Positions 9,336 to 57,973 of a stretch of DNA of 64,000 nucleotides are shown in pieces; position 1 is the first letter of the stretch, and every line of letters starts with the position of its first letter. Source of the stretch: Corynebacterium sp. TAE3-ERU12. Lineage in GTDB: Bacteria; Actinomycetota; Actinomycetes; Mycobacteriales; Mycobacteriaceae. Position numbers and translations under genes: made by a program. The stretch covers positions 1 through 64,000 of the forward strand of contig NZ_JAHUTM010000004.1 of the NCBI RefSeq assembly GCF_019209905.1. Direction: 5' to 3'. The notes under the pieces are model-generated. The model saw only the letters and a list, made by a program, of their open reading frames with translations. It made no database searches and was not told the DNA's origin.

Positions 9336-10796
<1,461 letters not shown>

Positions 10797-15897: not shown

Positions 15898-17088
15898 TTA
15901 GCTGGAGTACGCGGAGTTGATGTGCACGTACTCGTGCGACAGGTCCGTGGTGCGGATGGTGGCCGCACCGGCGTCACCGGTACCGAGGTCAACTTCAACG
16001 TGAATATCGCGGCCAGACAGGTCCACGTCGCGGGCATCAGGGGTGCCGGAGGTGTGTTCGCACACGGTGTGGCCGTTGAAGGTGACGGTGATATTGTCCG
16101 GGTCCATCTCGACTGGGGCGACGCCGACTGCGGCCAGCACCCGGCCCCAGTTCGGGTCCGAGCCGAACATGGCGCATTTGAACAGGTTGTCCCGGCCCAG
16201 GATGCGCGCGGCGGTAAGGGCCTGCTCTTCGCCGCCGGTGCCGCGCACGGTAATCGCAACGCGTTTGGTCACACCTTCGGCGTCGCTTTGCATCTGTTCG
16301 GCGATGTCTTCGCAGACTTCGCGCACCACGCGGTCGAATTCGTCCTGGTCGGGCTGCACCCCGGACGCACCGGAGGCCATGATCAGGCAGGTGTCGTTGG
16401 TGGAGGTCGAGCCGTCGATATCGAGGCGGTCGAAGGTGAGGCCGGTGGCCCGGGCCAGTGCCTCATGGGCCTGGCCGGGGGTGACATCGGCATCGGTGGT
16501 GATGACAACAAGCATGGTGGCCAGGGCGGGGCTGATCATGCCGACGCCCTTGCCCATCGCGCCGACGGTGTAGCCCGAGCCGTGGGCGACGGCTTGCTTG
16601 GGCACCAGGTCGGTGGTGCGGATCGCATCAGCGGCTGCGTCGGCACCTGCTTGGTCGTCCTCGAGCGCACTGATGAGCGGGGTGATGCCGCCAAGGAGGA
16701 TATCCATTGGCAGGCGGTCTCCGATGAGGCCAGTAGATGCCACCCCCACTTCGCTGGGGTCGAAGTCGAGTGCTTCGGCCACGGTGCTGCAGCTTTGTAG
16801 GGCATCAGCGATGCCCGCGCTGCCTGTGCACGCATTGGCGTTGCCGGAGTTGAGCAGTACTGCACGCAGCTGGCCATCGGAAATATTGTCGCGGGTGACG
16901 ATGACCGGGGCTGCCTGCACCCGGTTCAGGGTGAATAGGGCCGCTGCGGCCTTGCTTGGCCCGTCGTTGACAACCAGGGCGAGGTCCGGGTTACCGGAGA
17001 CCTTGATACCAGCGGTCACACCAGCCGCACGGAATCCCTTGGGGGCGGTGACGCCGGTGGGTTGCTGGTTGGTGGTGGAATCAGTCAT
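15898..17088 (-). CDS. argJ: Bifunctional ornithine acetyltransferase / N-acetylglutamate synthase
   Basis: ArgJ recycles the acetyl group from acetylornithine to glutamate and may also start the pathway. The 396-residue precursor contains the self-cleavage site in [14 protein letters not shown], where the chain is cut before Thr in the AT pair, giving two subunits. Near the middle [14 protein letters not shown] matches the conserved active-site segment. It lies between argC and argB. Whether it also uses acetyl-CoA (true bifunctionality) cannot be seen from sequence. Confidence 0.95.
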
Positions 17089-51214: not shown

Positions 51215-51291
51215 GCCCCTGTAGCCCAATTGGCAGAGGCAACGGATTCAAAACCCGTCCAGTGTGAGTTCGAGTCTCACCAGGGGCACCA
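51215..51291 (+). tRNA. tRNA with CAA anticodon (tRNA-Leu by anticodon), CCA encoded
   Basis: A full cloverleaf can be drawn: acceptor GCCCCTG/CAGGGGC, D arm GCC...GGC, anticodon stem ACGG/CCGT with loop TTCAAAA (anticodon CAA), T arm GTGAG-TTCGAGT-CTCAC and an encoded ACCA end. The variable loop is only about 5 bases, unlike typical Leu tRNAs with a long extra arm, and the 31-39 pair is A-C. Its 3' half (from 51264) is the attachment site of the integrative element that follows. A terminator follows at 51300-51340. Confidence 0.9.
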
Positions 51292-51365
51292 AATACAAAC
51301 CCCCAACTACCTGGCGAAACACCTGGTAGTTGGGGGTTTTGGCGTTGTCGGGGGCGATGAGCTTT
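51264..51365 (+). repeat. attL: 102-bp att repeat covering the tRNA 3' end and its terminator
   Basis: This segment repeats at 54417-54518 with 5 mismatches in 102 bases and no gaps. It includes the T arm and acceptor 3' strand of the tRNA and the following terminator hairpin. The left copy completes the tRNA; the right copy has one base change (G for T at 54428) in the T loop region. Such a repeat is the usual signature of tyrosine-integrase insertion at a tRNA. Confidence 0.9.
51300..51340 (+). terminator. Terminator after the tRNA, inside the att repeat
   Basis: CCCCCAACTACC pairs perfectly with GGTAGTTGGGGG, followed by TTTT. The same hairpin is duplicated in attR (54453-54493), so each recombination product keeps a terminator next to the tRNA. 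Confidence 0.85.
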
Positions 51366-51396
51366 ACGCCTATTTATGCCGGTTTCTGCGCGGTTC

Positions 51397-51425
51397 TGAG
51401 CCAAAAGTGAGCCAAAAATGAGCCA
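51397..51425 (+). repeat. Three TGAGCCA direct repeats, probable integrase arm sites (left)
   Basis: TGAGCCA occurs at 51397, 51408 and 51419, spaced exactly 11 bases, 32 bases inside attL. The same word occurs twice with 11-base spacing inside the 3' end of the integrase gene near attR. Such helically phased repeats are typical arm-type binding sites of tyrosine integrases. Confidence 0.65.
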
Positions 51426-51490
51426 CAAAAACCGACCCCTGAACACGAAAAAAGCGCCCCTTCGCCGTTCAGGCAGAGGGGCGCTATTCG

Positions 51491-51841
51491 TTACTGGGCC
51501 GGGGGTTCACGCGGATGAGGGCCAGTTGCTTCCACAACCTTCTGAAGCTGCACCAAAACCGGTTTCACCTCCGGCGGCGGCGGCTTCGCGCCCGCGTCTA
51601 TCCACACCAGCACGGCCTGCAGCGCGTGAATCGCCCGCGACAACTCCAGCATCAACTCGTGAGCGTTCCATTCCGCCGCCACCACGGGCCCTGGCTTGAC
51701 CCTGATAAAACCCTGGGCAGGTACGCCGACTGGCACGACATCACCACCTGGCCCACCAGCTCCCGCCAAACCGAGAACCTGCGCCGCAGTCCGGAGCGAC
51801 CTAAGAACTCCCCTGATGGGGAATAGATGTCGCAACCGCAT
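51491..51841 (-). CDS. Hypothetical element protein (116 residues)
   Basis: Not recognised. The reading frame encodes a basic, Gly/Pro-containing N-terminus (residues 1-50) and a helical, proline-bounded C-terminal part with HELMLELSRAIHALQAVLVW. No signal peptide is evident. It lies on the opposite strand to the integrase, in the left part of the element. No strong ribosome binding site was found; the start could be further downstream. Medium-low support: it rests on length and a plausible amphipathic helix. Confidence 0.4.
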   Translation of the reverse strand: MRLRHLFPIRGVLRSLRTAAQVLGLAGAGGPGGDVVPVGVPAQGFIRVKPGPVVAAEWNAHELMLELSRAIHALQAVLVWIDAGAKPPPPEVKPVLVQLQKVVEATGPHPREPPAQ

Positions 51842-51879
51842 GAGATGCTCACCCCGGTACCAACACGGGACAACACTGC

Positions 51880-51975
51880 TATAATCCTAGATGTGAGCCA
51901 GGGTTGAGCGTCAGCAAGAACACCCCGGGCAGCAACTCCAGGGACCCAACGCTGATGCGTTGGGTCCCTGTGGTT
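51880..51975 (+). ncRNA. Candidate small RNA with its own promoter and terminator
   Basis: A perfect -10 box TATAAT (51880-51885) is followed about 60 bases later by a perfect 13-bp hairpin AGGGACCCAACGC/GCGTTGGGTCCCT with a TGAT loop (51940-51969) and then GTGGTTTTCTT. This would make an RNA of about 85 bases starting near 51892 with no coding capacity. It lies within the integrative element, between the two outward-facing unknown genes. It could be an antisense or regulatory RNA of the element; target unknown. Confidence 0.5.
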
Positions 51976-52214
51976 TTCTTGTAGTCTTCAGGCTCTGTTG
52001 ACTCCCAGGCCCAGTGCGATTACTGTCGGGCGCATCGACCCCAGCCGTTGACCCTCCACCAATACGGAGAGCGCCGACGGCTGGGGTCTACTCGTATATA
52101 GAACGGCCCGCGCGGAGCAGGACTCGACGCCACTGCATGCCGTGTCGAGCAGTACTGGCCTGTTGGCGGATGGAGCCCTTCTCGAGGTGTGAAAAGTGGT
52201 GTAGTAGTGGTGTC

Positions 52215-52589
52215 ATGATAGAAGTAACCGAAGGCTTCACCCGTCCCGCACAAACCCCTTACGTGAAGGAATACACGGACCCCGACTACTACGTCATCTT
52301 CTGGGAAAAACGGACGCTACTAGACGACGGAGATCCTGAGACTGAATACAGACTTCGCCTTGCCTATAGGTTATCCGGCTGCGCTTCGGTGGAAGAGGCA
52401 ATCGAGTGGGAAAAAAGCAACGCTAATGGAAGGGAAGCTGCAACTCTGATCCCTGTCCTCTCAGAAGACGGAAAATCCGATATGCTTTTCGTTCTTCATG
52501 GGACGTATCCAGCGGGGTCCGAAACAGACCCAGATGGGCTGTTCGGGTGGACGATGTACCGCCCAGACAATGCACCACCGGCGATTTAG
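52215..52589 (+). CDS. Hypothetical element protein (124 residues)
   Basis: A hydrophilic, acidic protein beginning MIEVTEGFTRP with several aromatic residues (DPDYYVIFWEK) and a C-terminal LFGWTMYRPDN. No family, signal peptide or membrane segment is recognised. The reading frame is open further upstream to 52014, but that part is rich in Arg/Cys and has no ribosome binding site, so I start at the ATG at 52215. Its stop overlaps the stop of the convergent secreted-protein gene by four bases (52586-52589). Being opposite a secreted protein, it could be a cytoplasmic partner, but this is speculation. Confidence 0.6.
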   Translation: MIEVTEGFTRPAQTPYVKEYTDPDYYVIFWEKRTLLDDGDPETEYRLRLAYRLSGCASVEEAIEWEKSNANGREAATLIPVLSEDGKSDMLFVLHGTYPAGSETDPDGLFGWTMYRPDNAPPAI

Positions 52590-53020
52590 CAAATGAACTC
52601 TGCGTGCTTGCTAAACGCCCTATTGCCGTTGGCAGGGATATATGTCGGAGGCGATACCCAATTCACCACGACGCGCGACGTATAAGAGTGCTTCCTACCA
52701 TCGCACCGTAGAGCTGCATTGGTTTTCCAGATGCGCTTTCCGCGCACAACATGGACATTGGACTTGTTCTGAACACCATCATCGCGAGTGAGAGTGACAG
52801 TCCCCCAAATCTTTGTCATCGGAACATTGCACTTTACCACGGACTGTGCATTAGCGGTTCCTGGGACATGGTGCGACTTGTGTGGTTGATCCAAGTTGCC
52901 TGCACAATGAGCAATAGACGCCGCTTCTGCTTCAACAGGGTTGGCGACAAGCATCGAAGCCGCGATGGATGCTGCAACTGGAAGCGCCCATCGTTTTCGC
53001 CTAACGGTATCTGAAAACAT
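52586..53020 (-). CDS. Small secreted protein with four cysteines
   Basis: A 144-residue protein with a basic start (VRRKRW), a hydrophobic signal core and a likely cleavage site after VEAEAA-S near residue 33. The mature 110 residues have four cysteines (CAGN, KCNV, LRCDG and the final residue) and a beta-rich pattern TVTLTRDDG, IWKTNAALRC, SRVVVNWVSPPTY. I recall similar small exported proteins in actinobacterial mobile elements, but not their role. Its stop overlaps the stop of the convergent 124-residue gene. It resembles the secreted protein at 3240-3854 in the order Cys...V-x-L...W...A-x-x-x-C...S-x-V-x-V. Confidence 0.75.
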   Translation of the reverse strand: MFSDTVRRKRWALPVAASIAASMLVANPVEAEAASIAHCAGNLDQPHKSHHVPGTANAQSVVKCNVPMTKIWGTVTLTRDDGVQNKSNVHVVRGKRIWKTNAALRCDGRKHSYTSRVVVNWVSPPTYIPANGNRAFSKHAEFIC

Positions 53021-53275
53021 ATAGATCTCCTTAGAACTGGATTTCAGGACGTGACCTATACGGTATTCCGCACATTAAGCAACGAAAAGACCTTACTGGA
53101 AAACTGGTACTTAAGCCCCTCACCTGGGGGCCTAGGCTTCACTCGAATGCTTGCATGGAGCGCGGCTCGAGATTTCATGCACCCGCGCCATAAACGTTTC
53201 TTGGAACAAATGACAGCAGTAACGCCCCCAGTTATTGCAAGCCCCCATGACTTCTGGGCAGTGTGAGGACCCCCA

Positions 53276-54388
53276 ATGGCTAGCATCACGGCGTACACAA
53301 CCAAGTCCGGCCGCAGGTGGCAGGCGCAATGGACCAGGCCCGACGGGAGGCGCACCCGCACCCGAGGGTTCCGCACCAAAGCTGAAGCGCAAGCGTGGGT
53401 CGAGGAACAGGGCCATGCGCGCCGGCATGGCGCATGGGTCGACCCGGCAGACGGCCGCGCCACCGTCGGCGAAATCGGAGAACGGTGGCTGGCCGCGCAA
53501 ACCCACCTCAAGCCGTCAAGCCTGCGGGTCACACGCATCGCCTGGAACAACCACGTCCGCCCAGCGTGGGGTGACCGCCGCCTTGACGACATCACCCAGA
53601 CTGACGTTCAAGAATGGGTCGCCCTCCAGCCAGGGTCTGCATCAACCGTGCGCAGGAACCACCAGGTGCTCGCACAAGTCCTTGATGCAGCAGTCGCGGA
53701 CAAACGCATCGCCCTCAACCCCGCCCGCGGCGTGCGGCTACCACGCAAGCCCCGGCCGAAGCACGTCTACCTCTCCATGGACCAAGTCCGAAGCTTCACC
53801 GAGGAATGCTCACACTACGGGGAAATCGTGTGGGTTCTTGCCACCACCGGGTTGCGGTGGAGCGAGCTCGCAGGCCTGCGCGTAGAGGACATCGACCTCG
53901 ACGCCCGTAGAATCCACGTCAACCGGGCCGCTGTCCAGGTCGGTTCACGCATCGAAGTAGGCACACCCAAGACGCATGAGCGCCGCAGCGTGGCTATGCC
54001 ACGGTTCGTGTGCAACATGCTGCGCCCGCTTCTCGAGGACCGCGACAGGACGGAATGGGTCTGGCACCGCCCCGACGGCACACCACTACCGCCGCCTACC
54101 ACCGGTTCATGGTTCTTCGAAGCGCGGAACAGGATGCAGGCGCGTGAGCCCGATTTCCCCGCAATCACGCCGCACGGTTTGCGGCACGTCGCCGCGGGCC
54201 TGCTCGTCGGTTCAGGGGCGAACGTGAAGGTGGTGCAGCGACAGTTGGGGCACTCCAGTGCCGCGATGACGTTGGACGTGTACGCGGACCTGTTCGACGA
54301 CGATCTGGACTGCGTTGCGGACACGATGGACAACCTGCACTCAGAACTAGGTGAGCCAAAAGTGAGCCAAATACGCCGAATTTCCTAG
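53276..54388 (+). CDS. int: Tyrosine-type integrase
   Basis: A 370-residue site-specific recombinase. The N-terminal arm-binding domain (residues 1 to about 60) carries the TKSGRRWQAQWTRPDGRRTR pattern. A core-binding SAM-like domain (about 65-150) follows, then the catalytic domain with Arg in GLRWSELAGLR (about 205), HGLRH (about 301), the conserved His of GHSS (about 324) and the nucleophilic Tyr in DVYADLF (about 334). The stop lies 28 bases before attR, and the last codons contain two TGAGCCA arm-type repeats. A GTGAGGA ribosome binding site precedes the ATG. It is the only mobility gene of the 3.15-kb element. Confidence 0.93.
   Translation: MASITAYTTKSGRRWQAQWTRPDGRRTRTRGFRTKAEAQAWVEEQGHARRHGAWVDPADGRATVGEIGERWLAAQTHLKPSSLRVTRIAWNNHVRPAWGDRRLDDITQTDVQEWVALQPGSASTVRRNHQVLAQVLDAAVADKRIALNPARGVRLPRKPRPKHVYLSMDQVRSFTEECSHYGEIVWVLATTGLRWSELAGLRVEDIDLDARRIHVNRAAVQVGSRIEVGTPKTHERRSVAMPRFVCNMLRPLLEDRDRTEWVWHRPDGTPLPPPTTGSWFFEARNRMQAREPDFPAITPHGLRHVAAGLLVGSGANVKVVQRQLGHSSAAMTLDVYADLFDDDLDCVADTMDNLHSELGEPKVSQIRRIS
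54352..54369 (+). repeat. Two TGAGCCA repeats within the integrase 3' end (right arm sites)
   Basis: TGAGCCA starts at 54352 and 54363, spaced 11 bases, within codons for GEPKVSQ. They mirror the three repeats at the left end and lie about 50 bases from attR. Confidence 0.6.
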
Positions 54389-54416
54389 GTTTTCCCTGTT
54401 CAGGGCTTTGCGATTG

Positions 54417-54518
54417 GTGAGTTCGAGGCTCACCAGGGGCACCAAATACAAACCCCCAACTACCTGGCGAAACACCTGGTAGTTGGGGTTTTTGGCGTTT
54501 TCTGCGGCGATGAGCTTT
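54417..54518 (+). repeat. attR: right att repeat
   Basis: The right copy of the 102-bp att repeat, 5 mismatches from the left copy. It repeats the tRNA 3' end and the terminator hairpin but does not complete a tRNA. Confidence 0.9.
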
Positions 54519-54986
54519 CGTCGCCACCAAATGGGACCGCTGGGCATGCGACAGGCACGCAACGATGCCCGATGTTGACAAACCTTCGTGGCCTTCCGTT
54601 GCCCGAAGTGAAACGGAAGACCACGGACGTTTCCACCACCGACAACCCGGCTACGTACCCTGCCCGAGCAGCCACCCGGACGCGGTAGCCAGTCCATGCC
54701 CGGGGTAGTCGCGTTGCTCCGCTGGTTCACTGGGATCGCCGCGCATCCATGCCTTATGCCGCGGGCTGGTTCAGCTTCCAGTTGCGGTGTAGACGGCACG
54801 GGTGGCGTGGTGGAGCGGACGCCGTTGCCCCCGACCTGGAATTATTAGGTACGGGCAGACGTGGTGCGTAGGGCTAAGAACAAGGACGATAAGGAATAAT
54901 GGAAAGCCCTTCCCGACCATCCCAATTGGCCGGGAAGAGCCCTCCCCAGGGTAACTCCACAACTCACACAAATGAAAGGAAAACAC
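54519..54986. other. Gene-poor stretch outside attR
   Basis: About 470 bases with no gene that I can support. A stem CTTCCCG/CGGGAAG lies near 54906-54935, and GAAAGGA near 54975 is the ribosome binding site of the next small gene. The stretch is probably remnant mobile DNA. Confidence 0.5.
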
Positions 54987-55109
54987 ATGCGTTGGACAGC
55001 CATACTAGGCACCGTCGGGCTGGCGGTAGCCGCCTTCGGGGCATCCCCGATATGGATTCCCGCGTTACTGATAGCTGGGTACAGCCGAGACCGTCGGGAG
55101 CGTCGATGA
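54987..55109 (+). CDS. Tiny membrane protein (40 residues)
   Basis: The sequence MRWTAILGTVGLAVAAFGAS continues with PIWIPALLIAGY and ends in a basic SRDRRERR tail, giving two short hydrophobic segments. GAAAGGA lies 7 bases upstream. The stop overlaps the start of the next gene (ATGA, 55106-55109), which is strong evidence that both are translated. The combination of a tiny membrane protein and an excisionase-like HTH protein is typical of plasmid- or element-derived modules. Not recognised further. Confidence 0.65.
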   Translation: MRWTAILGTVGLAVAAFGASPIWIPALLIAGYSRDRRERR

Positions 55110-55330
55110 ATCTGGAAATCATCGACTCCGATACCGGCGATACATACTGGACAGCCACTCAGTGCGCTGAGTATTGCCAGATCACGAAAAGCAGCTGGAG
55201 CTCGTATGTCTCCCGTGGACAAGCACCAGCTTCGACTGTGAAGTTCGGCAGTCTTAGCGTTTGGCCTGCCAAACAGGTCAGACAATGGTCTGCGCAGCGC
55301 CGCCCCTATGGTCGCATGAGGCGCTCTTAG
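55106..55330 (+). CDS. Excisionase-like helix-turn-helix protein
   Basis: A 74-residue DNA-binding protein of the MerR/AlpA-like (helix-turn-helix 17) type: YWTATQCAEYCQITKSSWSS and YVSRGQAPAS form the HTH, followed by the beta-wing and a W-PAKQVRQW segment, ending in a basic tail. Such small proteins act as excisionases or element repressors. It overlaps the preceding 40-residue gene by four bases. It lies outside attR of the 3.15-kb element and has no integrase next to it, so it is probably a relic of a different element, or the xis of the neighbour left outside. Confidence 0.75.
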   Translation: MNLEIIDSDTGDTYWTATQCAEYCQITKSSWSSYVSRGQAPASTVKFGSLSVWPAKQVRQWSAQRRPYGRMRRS

Positions 55331-55798
55331 CCCTAAATTCCCGCACATCCGCCCCGACTGCCGATGTGGCCGGGCGGTTCCCGTAGGTGTCGTTGAAACT
55401 GTGCTGTATGCGGTAGGCCTACGCCTTGTTGCCGGCCGCGCGCTTGGAGCTGGGAGGGCTTAGCTCATGTGGGCGGGGTAATTGGACTGCTCTTCGCCTC
55501 CTCCGCTTCATCTGTCATAACCGCCTCCTCTGGCAGATCCGTACCAATTGCGCAGATCCGTACGAAATTTCGCACGGATCTGCGCAATTGGTACGGGTTT
55601 GCGCGCACACCACCGAAGCCCCGCACCCGCCGTCCACACCCACCGCCACCGAAGCCGCCAAAGCCCCACACACCCGCCGCCAACTCGTCGCCATCCCCCT
55701 CTCAACAGGGCTTTTCGTTATCTGCCCCATGTTGGCCCGAACCAACTAATAACCGCTTATGATCACTGGGGAATATAGATCCAGGGAGGCGTAACCAG
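55331..55798. other. Intergenic stretch around a long palindrome
   Basis: About 470 bases without a supported gene. Several overlapping frames run across the palindrome at 55539-55596 in mirror-image fashion because the sequence is symmetrical; none has a ribosome binding site. A TATGAT-like -10 near 55757 probably serves the next gene. Confidence 0.5.
55539..55596. repeat. 58-bp nearly perfect palindrome
   Basis: The left arm of 23 bases (55539-55561, CCGTACCAATTGCGCAGAT then CCGT) is the exact reverse complement of 55574-55596. The 12-base centre ACGAAATTTCGC is itself symmetrical apart from its end bases. The word GCAGATCCGT also occurs just upstream (55534-55543), making it a threefold iterated motif. 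No T tract follows, so it is not a typical terminator. Confidence 0.9.
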
Positions 55799-56623
55799 GT
55801 GGCGAATCGTCTGCGCAAGCTTTTTCAGCACCGGTCGGCGAAGCCACGTTCGACTGGCCGCCACGCTGCCGCGAAGCATGCTCCTGGTGTGCTTACCGAC
55901 GCTGAGGGCCGCCCGCTGGTGACGCCGAAGGTTGAGTTGCCGAATAATGTGGGCGCTTATCGTGAGCGTGTGCGTCCGCAGAAGAAGATTGCTGTCGGGT
56001 TGAGTCTTATTCTCGGTGTGCTGGCTTTGGCGTTGCCCCTGGTGATGGGGGCGAAGGTGTGGCTGCCTGCGGTGTTTGTGACGGTGGGTTTGTTGGTTCC
56101 GCCGTTATGGTGGCTGCGTCATCAGTTCCGTGAGGTCCGGGCGCAGCGTGATCCGGATGCGCCAGCGGCAATTTTGCACCGACATTGGGGCATCATCATC
56201 CCGGTGTGTGCGGCATTGGTTGTTGCTGGCGGGATTGGTATCGGCTGGTTTGCGCTTGCCGACGATGACGCCTCCGGCACGGATAGCTCGCAGTCGTCGG
56301 ATTCGGCTGATCCTAAGCGGAAGACGGTGACGCGCACTTCAACGGCCACTACGACGACTACGACGGTATCGACCTCTACACCTACGTCTCCGGCACGGTC
56401 CTCTGGTGGCAGGGCGCGTGTGCCGCAACCCGCTCAGCCGGGTGCGGGTAGTAATGGGCCTGCCGACGGTAATCCGCAGCCGGCCCCGAACCCGGCCCCG
56501 AATCCGGCTCCGCAGCCCAACCCGCAGCCTGCGCCGCCGCCGGCTCCTGACGGTGATAACCCGCCGCCGTTGCTGCCACCACCGTTCCCGGGTGATGACA
56601 TCCCGTGGTGGCCGTTCGATTAA
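55799..56623 (+). CDS. Membrane protein with an extracellular Thr/Pro-rich tail
   Basis: A 274-residue protein with a basic cytoplasmic N-terminus (about 65 residues, rich in Lys/Arg), hydrophobic helices at about 63-81, 86-103 and 133-152, and then a long tail of low complexity: Ser/Asp, a Thr run near 185, and PNPAP and PQPAP repeats to the acidic end DDIPWWPFD. The tail is probably outside, spanning the cell wall. The GTG start at 55799 has AGGGAGG about 10 bases upstream. No family is recognised. It precedes the malic enzyme gene by about 150 bases. Confidence 0.75.
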   Translation: MANRLRKLFQHRSAKPRSTGRHAAAKHAPGVLTDAEGRPLVTPKVELPNNVGAYRERVRPQKKIAVGLSLILGVLALALPLVMGAKVWLPAVFVTVGLLVPPLWWLRHQFREVRAQRDPDAPAAILHRHWGIIIPVCAALVVAGGIGIGWFALADDDASGTDSSQSSDSADPKRKTVTRTSTATTTTTTVSTSTPTSPARSSGGRARVPQPAQPGAGSNGPADGNPQPAPNPAPNPAPQPNPQPAPPPAPDGDNPPPLLPPPFPGDDIPWWPFD

Positions 56624-56770
56624 GCCCCACCTGGCGGTTGTCTGTGGGCCGCTACGATGGTGTGCAACAGTTATAACTACTCATCAACTTTTATCTCGCC
56701 GCCGCTGTTTGCCTGGGGTCTGGGCTAAGGCCCTATTGGGTCAGCGGTTGGCTGGAATCGGAGCATACGA

Positions 56771-57973
56771 ATGACTACCGCCAAGGCAGGCGCCATCACC
56801 GACGAGGAGATCTTCCGCGCACATGAGGGCGGCAAGCTCATTACTGCCTCCACTTTGCCGCTGGATTCGACGCGGGACCTCTCCATTGCCTATACCCCTG
56901 GTGTTGCCCGGGTGTGTGAGGCCATCCATGAGGATGAGTCGCTGGCCCGTAAGTACACCTGGACTGGGCATAACGTGGCCATCATTACTGATGGCACTGC
57001 TGTGCTGGGTCTGGGCGATATCGGCCCGAAGGCCGGTATGCCGGTCATGGAGGGTAAAGCGCAGCTCTTTGGTCGCTTCGCTGGTATTAACGCCATCCCG
57101 CTGGCTTTGGACACTACTGATACTGACGAGTTGGTTGAAACTATTGCTCGTCTGGCTCCTTCGTTTGGTGGCATCAACCTCGAAGATATTGCTGCTCCGC
57201 GCTGCTTCGAGATTGAGCGTCGTCTCGACGAGATGCTTGATATCCCGATTTTCCATGATGACCAGCACGGCACTGCCATTGTGATCACCGCTGGGCTGCG
57301 TAATGCCTGCAAGTTGACTGGTAAGCACCTGGAGGATCTCAAGGTTGTGATCTCTGGTGCCGGTGCCGCTGGTATGGCTACTGCCCGGATGTTGTTGGCC
57401 GCTGGTGTGCGCAATATCGTCTTGTGCGATTCGCGCGGCATTATTCACCAGGGCCGTTCCCCGATGAATGAGTCGAAGCAGGCCATCGCCGAGATCACGA
57501 ATCCGAAGGGCCTGAAGGGCGAGATCCGTACCGCCTTGGAGGGCGCGGATACCTTCATTGGTGTGTCCGCCGGCCACCTGGGTGAGGAGGATATCCGGGT
57601 TATGGATAAGGACCCGTTCTTGTTCTCCTTGGCGAACCCGAATCCGGAGATTCCGCAGGAGCTTGCCCTGAAGTATGGCGCGGTGGTGGCTACTGGCCGT
57701 TCCGATCACCCCAACCAGATCAATAATGTGTTGGCTTTCCCGGGCATTTTCAAGGGTGCGCTGAATGCTGGTGCGAAGCGCATTACGCGGAATATGAAGC
57801 TCGCTGCTACGCGCGCTATTGCTGAGGTCGTTGCCGATGATCTCTCCCCTGACCGGATTGTGCCGTCTCCGCTGGATCCTGCCGTGGCCCCTGCGGTGAC
57901 CGCGGCGGTGGAGATTGCTGCCCGCAACGATCACAATTCAGGTGCGCCGCAGCCGGCTGCGGACGACAAATAG
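56771..57973 (+). CDS. Malic enzyme
   Basis: Decarboxylates malate to pyruvate, producing NAD(P)H. The 400-residue protein is the short bacterial type without the C-terminal phosphotransacetylase domain. It has SIAYTPGVA, TDGTAVLGLGDIGPKAGMPVM (substrate region), FHDDQHGTAIV and the nucleotide loop GAGAAGMA (about 195-202), followed by LCDSRG. An aspartate after the second strand usually favours NAD; the C. glutamicum counterpart uses NADP, so the cofactor is not certain. A GGAG lies 7 bases before the ATG. Confidence 0.95.
   Translation: MTTAKAGAITDEEIFRAHEGGKLITASTLPLDSTRDLSIAYTPGVARVCEAIHEDESLARKYTWTGHNVAIITDGTAVLGLGDIGPKAGMPVMEGKAQLFGRFAGINAIPLALDTTDTDELVETIARLAPSFGGINLEDIAAPRCFEIERRLDEMLDIPIFHDDQHGTAIVITAGLRNACKLTGKHLEDLKVVISGAGAAGMATARMLLAAGVRNIVLCDSRGIIHQGRSPMNESKQAIAEITNPKGLKGEIRTALEGADTFIGVSAGHLGEEDIRVMDKDPFLFSLANPNPEIPQELALKYGAVVATGRSDHPNQINNVLAFPGIFKGALNAGAKRITRNMKLAATRAIAEVVADDLSPDRIVPSPLDPAVAPAVTAAVEIAARNDHNSGAPQPAADDK

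Follow-up and report, generated by a model that had tools for sequence, protein, structure and literature searches.

Dispersed palindromes of bacteria are best understood where they are linked to a RAYT enzyme. MITEs form another group of short, non-coding, inverted-repeat sequences that are dispersed in genomes. REPINs, known from Pseudomonas and other bacteria, are REP doublets that form hairpins and are linked to RAYT, according to the available portion of Bertels and Rainey (2011, PMC3116915). REPs with GTAG or CGTC tags have stems of 5-13 bp as tabulated in PMC3733652, and the words Actinobacteria and Corynebacterium are absent from the available main text of that source. The available portion of Cozzuto (2008, PMC2267715) describes intergenic stem-loop families in C. 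diphtheriae, Cod-1 and Cod-5, the latter being 74 bp long with 35 members listed. Here we describe a palindrome family encountered in Corynebacterium sp. TAE3-ERU12, in a stretch of 64,000 nucleotides (the window). Its four consensus words were found in no paper of the open-access literature searched, and the family is most likely new.

The palindrome at 55533-55602 and its copies in the genome

The window contains a near-perfect palindrome that recurs across the genome. It is a spacer-free inverted repeat of 70 bp (55533-55602), with arms of 35 + 35 that are 91% complementary (31 of 34 positions). A sequence-only reading had reported a 58-bp palindrome with exact 23-bp arms around the centre CGAAATTTCG, all of which is present as claimed; its end points, 55534-55596, locate the palindrome correctly but are slightly narrow for the full repeat. 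In a window-wide scan of palindromic centres the element ranks at the top with 31 of 34, against 22 of 34 for the runner-up, and 20 mononucleotide-shuffled windows gave best centres of 20-23 of 34. The RNA fold of 55528-55606 reaches -59.4 kcal/mol (z = -12.3), with a predicted stem of about 30 bp, and is very stable on both strands. The same reading had noted the absence of a T tract, and indeed none follows the palindrome; a scan of 54300-56900 for intrinsic terminators listed none at the element. The features of the locus are as follows.

55106-55330, + strand: small upstream ORF of 74 aa, without Pfam match (ORF call)
55533-55602, no strand: palindromic element of 70 bp, one of 31 copies in the genome (sequence, inverted-repeat search, copy count)
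55533-55542, + strand: unit 1, GCAGATCCGT, outer left (word scan)
55552-55561, + strand: unit 2, GCAGATCCGT, inner left (word scan)
55563-55572, no strand: hairpin tip, AT-rich centre CGAAATTTCG (sequence, fold)
55574-55583, - strand: unit 3, GCAGATCCGT, inner right (word scan)
55593-55602, - strand: unit 4, variant GCAAACCCGT, outer right; the variant is similar to the boxes of related species
55616-55683, no strand: degenerate GC-rich tandem array adjoining the palindrome, period 22, about 3 copies, 66% matches
55799-56623, + strand: downstream gene of 274 aa, its start 196 bp from the element (ORF call)

The element is flanked by GGGTTTGCGCGC and similar sequence. Judged from its sequence, the 274-aa product downstream appears membrane-like and Pro-rich; it has no match in Pfam. 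Untrimmed ORFs overlap the window's copy (55426-55749 and 55469-55762) and some copies elsewhere, which we take as chance. A search of Rfam with 52000-57000 gave no match, and four palindrome loci (L096, L099, L024, and L032) gave nine matches, all below the gathering score and eight of them to microRNA families. Elsewhere in the window, a small integrated island with a phage-type integrase occupies 51264-54518 at tRNA-Leu(CAA); its ends carry a 102-bp flanking repeat that is 95% identical. The palindrome lies ~1 kb outside this island.

Copies within the genome share one architecture. In the 2.2-Mb genome there are 83 occurrences of the word GCAGATCCGT (43 + 40), against one of a reversed control word. 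A search with a 68-base consensus found full palindromes at 31 places, and these contain 76 of the 83 words, a distribution different from the single, scattered, high-copy words of a DNA uptake sequence. Four words, ordered + + - -, are found in every copy. Of the 31 copies, 21 contain another type of word, GCAAACCCGT, which almost always occupies one unit. The words and their spacing hardly vary, the copies align without internal gaps (one of two alignments took 21 of the 31), and mean identity between copies is 88% when the better orientation is taken. Arm matches range from 23 to 31 of 34, and 13 of the 31 copies sit in a single 88-kb stretch. An interpretation of the GAT/AAC variants in terms of RNA, with G-U pairs on one strand, was set aside because, by our reading, no orientation yields wobble pairs only.

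The copy count bears out one suggestion of the sequence-only reading, that of a miniature dispersed repeat. It gives no support to another, that of a unique origin or recombination site; the palindrome lies outside the tRNA-Leu/integrase island. The worry that the symmetry might be an artefact does not hold up, since 31 loci show it, as do relatives whose genomes were assembled independently.

Related palindromes in Corynebacterium

The family has many copies per genome and a species-specific sequence, within a single architecture of four words (+ + - -) and 70 bp. BLAST with the consensus from the window's genome (G000) gave only 21-base matches (E 0.006) in 2 of 241 other genomes of the genus. 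Kinship was gauged by a protein fragment that we take to be ClpB, which replaced an earlier malic-enzyme search (36 of 61 genomes); among the matches listed, the nearest genome is G039 (92%), followed by a group at 88-90%. A covariance model built from 21 copies of the window's genome alone was run on 12 near relatives. It detected related palindromes in G172 and G171 (best E 1.4e-11) and pieces of 24-32 bp in four relatives (E 0.017-0.9), with no match in the other six, G160 and G263 included. The G172 and G171 palindromes are spelled differently (GCAAACCCACCCCGAATGCGCAGACCCACCCG...), with the same length, four-box order, and ungapped alignment. The word itself is AGATCCGTAC in the window's genome and AACCCACCC in the relatives.

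A combined covariance model was then applied to 242 genomes of the genus in strict mode, with 20 candidates scored per genome, and gave hits in 9 and none in 233; the near relatives G034, G069, G099, G128, and G238 are among the latter. In a second run on 12 chosen genomes, with 150 candidates scored in each and both strands counted, there were 62 hits in G000, 121 in G171, 134 in G172, 38 in G263, 26 in G220, 10 in G160, 12 in G089, and 2 each in G236 and G214, with 0 in G039, G056, and G080. Because these counts cover both strands, the places are about half as many. G236 and G214 were set aside as carriers (20 and 18 of 34 arm matches, respectively). Where BLAST gave only short matches, covariance models, which tolerate paired change, reach sister families.

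When named genomes were scanned with the relatives' boxes, 64 stretches matched, all titled Corynebacterium. Their sources are 307_CHAL (recorded as C. halotolerans; the same genome as G171), C. xerosis NBRC 16721, and the metagenome-assembled AS08sgBPME_81; by their identical flanks, the C. xerosis record is G263 and the AS08 assembly is G220. A further metagenome-assembled genome, S5R_St_18 (L182), has one pattern match to these boxes, with no palindrome there, and was rejected. An exact-pattern scan with the centre from the window's genome found nothing in this collection, which may leave out that genome. Two shorter palindromes of the more distant species G089 (L140 and L146) were left out of the full-member counts, and L138 (G220), which had been mis-centred, was not used. 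The boxes of L140 resemble those of the window's genome (GCAAATCCGTAC), and L140 adjoins an apparent ordinary terminator.

Matches to mobile elements are few. The stretch from the window's genome has no match among phage records and only a 25-bp match among plasmid records (E 0.5). The relatives' stretch has no match among plasmid records and, among phage records, a 39-bp match to one Arthrobacter phage (E 4e-4). A viral scan with the relatives' boxes returned 0. With a loose centre it returned nine loci: the combined model aligns an inner hairpin of ~26 bp in five, which we read as chance, and the remaining four have no alignment with an E of 1 or less; there is one further weak match in L074 (E 0.92). 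In L224, a background stretch of the window's genome, weak combined-model hits at 9935-9980 and 16117-16166 (20.5 and 17.6 bits, best E 0.015) are chance hairpins or degenerate copies.

The arms change in pairs between species. In a mixed alignment of 29 copies (14 from the window's genome and 15 from G172/G171), 92.9% of cells are paired, against 24-45% in slid control structures, and 15 of 32 pairs are changed on both sides. Of 500 shuffles, none reached the paired share or the covariation score, 25 had at least as many pairs changed on both sides, and 486 at least as many pair types. Covariation in this alignment is mostly one contrast between two species groups and thus represents few independent events. 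Within C. xerosis, the linker varies from copy to copy, mostly together with the partner arm. We used 17 copies, selected with a pattern in which the boxes of one arm are fixed and the linker is free. In linker columns 19-21, 32 cells depart from the commonest pair, comprising 18 changed on both sides, 6 changed on one side, and 8 unpaired, while 19 are unchanged. Here, the covariation score is reached in 2 of 500 shuffles, the paired-cell share in 28, and the number of doubly changed pairs in 262. Paired change could also arise without selection, through template-switch repair of quasi-palindromes.

Gene context, flanking arrays, and probable mobility

The elements contain no called gene and are enriched in gaps between convergent genes. 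Gene calls were made with a simple codon model built for this analysis, the codon table of the window's genome resting on only 22 training ORFs. In that genome, 0 of the 31 copies fall inside a called gene; 17 lie between convergent, 10 between codirectional, and 3 between divergent genes, and the window's copy is at an edge. Counted as distinct gaps, with tallies entered by hand here and for the relatives, 11 of 22 are convergent, compared with 5 of 61 background gaps of at least 100 bp (Fisher p 9e-5), 9 of 22 are codirectional, and 2 of 22 are divergent (background 10 of 61), a depletion that is not clear. For G172/G171, gaps were taken from 40 fetched copies, with orthologous pairs counted once, and the background was the syntenic block of both sisters, element gaps included. 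Convergent gaps make up 20 of 29 (background 36 of 258; p 7e-10) and divergent gaps 0 of 29 (background 63 of 258; p 7e-4).

These counts come from the second version of the gene caller, which required GC3 above GC1 in training. The first version mis-called antisense frames in GC-rich DNA and was rejected; it gave 16 divergent, 19 codirectional, and 3 convergent among 38 copies of the relatives, left 2 of 40 unplaced, and had L117 and L134 overlapping a called gene. The second gave 25 convergent, 15 codirectional, and 0 divergent of 40, and a translation check of L119 agrees with it (convergent). In the window's genome the counts changed little between versions, from 15/13/3 of 31 to 17/10/3 of 30.

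At roughly half of the sites a GC-rich tandem array, specific to the locus, lies no more than 120 bp away, a feature that is rare in control intergenic DNA. Arrays are present in 22 of 56 flanks of up to 120 bp in the window's genome (controls, 1 of 68 intergenic pieces) and in 23 of 67 in the relatives (controls, 12 of 272). Counted by distinct gap in the outer flanks, they occur in 12 of 23 and 17 of 29, respectively, where shuffled flanks predict 0.35 and 0.9. The array unit differs among most loci and contains a palindrome arm in several G172/G171 loci. Flank GC in the window's genome starts at 0.737 over the first 50 bp, drops to 0.693 over the following 50, and is 0.62-0.66 beyond 100 bp; in the relatives it falls from 0.732 to ~0.70. 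No description of tandem arrays beside such palindromes was found in the open-access literature searched, and the arrays are new here.

Two loci have further repeats. At ~2007-2471 of L032 (contig 4 of G000, near 184.2 kb), a 183-bp unit that includes the palindrome is repeated ~2.5 times in tandem, between what we take to be an amidotransferase-like gene and, on the other side, an Fe-S biosynthesis gene. At ~1845-1925 of L024, two GC-rich hairpin repeats (AGCCCCGCTCACGCGGGGA) near the palindrome have the appearance of a CRISPR relic or paired terminators; one is well kept in L025, which has ~250 bp in common with L024.

Palindromes have moved or been duplicated together with flanking DNA. Among the matches listed, composites of ~330 bp (palindrome, ~165 bp, palindrome) occur in at least four places on contig 1; one of them, the first, has 89-92% identity with the others, and the outer flanks differ beyond ~10 bp. 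Besides these composites and a few locus pairs, copies have little in common outside the 70-bp core, an indication that the core is what spreads.

The sisters G171 and G172 differ by the presence or absence of a palindrome at one site. A 407-bp unit with the palindrome is found in G171 and is absent in G172. CCGA is common to the junctions; the reading frames on either side both have intact ends, and in the empty form (G172) their stops are separated by 12 bp. The unit at this site has 407 bp rather than 70 bp. An insertion would explain the difference more simply, although this single case, a comparison of two sister genomes, could be a deletion. In a 0.3-Mb block, eight of nine G172 copies have a positional partner in G171, which shows that turnover is slow; at the ninth, the G171 region differs and has no clean junction. 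Near 2.260 Mb of G172 (L252-L253 with L237), a palindrome-bearing stretch of 0.5 kb corresponds to a syntenic G171 stretch that is unrelated and of similar length. The sequence-only reading expected target duplications of a mobile repeat. Direct repeats of 5-9 bp show no clear excess at the core ends in four copy sets; in the window's genome, those of length 5 number 9 (6.0 expected) and those of length 6 number 0 (2.0 expected). The RAYT transposase domain (Y1_Tnp, PF01797) was found in 0 of 15 genomes, including the window's genome and six other carriers, whereas 5 of 14 control genomes were positive. With Y1_Tnp as the transposase surveyed, the mover looks like something other than RAYT, the enzyme known for such repeats elsewhere.

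Competing explanations and known systems

The element is probably a copy of an intergenic repeat that is dispersed, non-autonomous, and able to form a hairpin. It would be a miniature mobile palindrome similar to a REPIN, carried by a group of Corynebacterium to which C. xerosis belongs. Copies would spread through a single-stranded hairpin intermediate, for example on the lagging strand, and an enzyme acting in trans may read the four words. Insertions would survive mainly downstream of genes. The match between the arms may persist because copies must form a hairpin in order to spread, or because mismatches are repaired by template switching, and the hairpin might stall or slip replication locally, leaving tandem arrays beside it. 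A more tentative possibility is that these palindromes are a class of mobile hairpin, transposase-independent or served by an unknown enzyme, that copies itself and seeds GC-rich minisatellites beside each copy. Hairpin-primed template switching would then mend the arms, giving paired change without RNA selection, and would also create the locus-specific tandem arrays and raise local GC.

Other explanations fit parts of the evidence. Strong convergent-gene enrichment, a fold that is very stable on both strands, arms that co-vary between species, and the retention of eight of nine copies between the sisters in one block would all suit a selected RNA or transcription element, in which a bidirectional hairpin lacking a U tract ends or insulates convergent transcription, or protects the 3' ends of mRNAs. 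We consider this unlikely, given that the T tract is absent, that 9 of 22 gaps in the window's genome are codirectional and 2 of 22 divergent, and that close relatives such as G039 and G056 have no hit. Furthermore, intrinsic terminators between the stop codon and the element are not depleted (5 of 32 gene ends in the window's genome, 2.4 expected; 2 of 47 in the relatives, 2.2 expected). Local replication instability alone, with palindromes and arrays born by template switching and copied by ectopic recombination without a transposition enzyme, has little probability in our view. Such a process agrees with the arrays at about half of the sites, the inclusion of the palindrome in the composites and in the 183-bp tandem repeat, and the failure to find a Y1 transposase in 15 genomes, but not with how little the copies beyond the composites and few pairs share outside the 70-bp core.

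It is very doubtful that the family is a binding-site array for a dedicated DNA-binding protein of the nucleoid, segregation, or replication that needs four + + - - words. The word changes from AGATCCGTAC in the window's genome to AACCCACCC in the relatives, 13 of 31 copies are within one 88-kb stretch, and 233 of 242 genomes of the genus have no hit, against which stands the near invariance of words and spacing within the window's genome. Least probable by far is a transcriptional operator, or a plasmid or phage origin left by a lost element. The palindromic form would fit, as would the location of the window's copy 196 bp upstream of a gene start. However, there are 31 copies, and matches to phage or plasmid are confined to 25 bp of plasmid sequence for the window's own stretch (E 0.5) and 39 bp of one Arthrobacter phage for that of the relatives (E 4e-4). 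For the family as a whole, the enrichment of copies between convergent genes makes the operator proposed by the sequence-only reading unlikely; the window's copy may still have a local effect on the gene 196 bp downstream.

The REPIN-like mobile palindrome can be set beside several described systems. Since the carriers searched lack RAYT and have REPIN-type anatomy and placement, another route of spread must exist. The arrays offer a natural system for asking whether near-perfect palindromes give birth to minisatellites, and the repeats may serve as strain-typing markers. Like MITEs, the Corynebacterium palindromes are short, non-coding, inverted-repeat, and dispersed. At their core ends, duplications of 5-9 bp are not clearly in excess, and a CCGA repeat bounds one 407-bp unit. 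Compared by description rather than sequence, Cod-1 and Cod-5 are likewise intergenic repeat families of a Corynebacterium in the available portion of PMC2267715.

GTAG/CGTC REPs, in the available portion of PMC3733652, are also intergenic palindromes found mostly between convergent or unidirectional ORFs, and CGTC repeats also seem to be without a dedicated transposase. The present family has no consistent tag: among 98 copies, the 70-bp core contains GTAG in 9 and CGTC in 8, and within 42 bp of the centre they are found in 11 and 24, respectively. Its stem of ~30 bp is far above the 5-13 bp tabulated there.

The family is REPIN-like but not a REPIN member, because there is no Y1 (RAYT) in 15 genomes and no consistent GTAG/CGTC tag. 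It differs from REPINs in lacking Y1/RAYT in the window's genome and the six other carriers searched, in palindrome halves that each hold two direct words, and in the tandem arrays that adjoin copies. As in REPINs, there are many intergenic hairpins with inverted halves (31 copies, 0 of 31 in a called gene). The likeness to REPINs, as they appear in the available portion of PMC3116915, extends to short intergenic palindromes of similar length, inverted doublets, many copies per genome, compensatory changes, a variable spacer within conserved boxes, and species-specific families.
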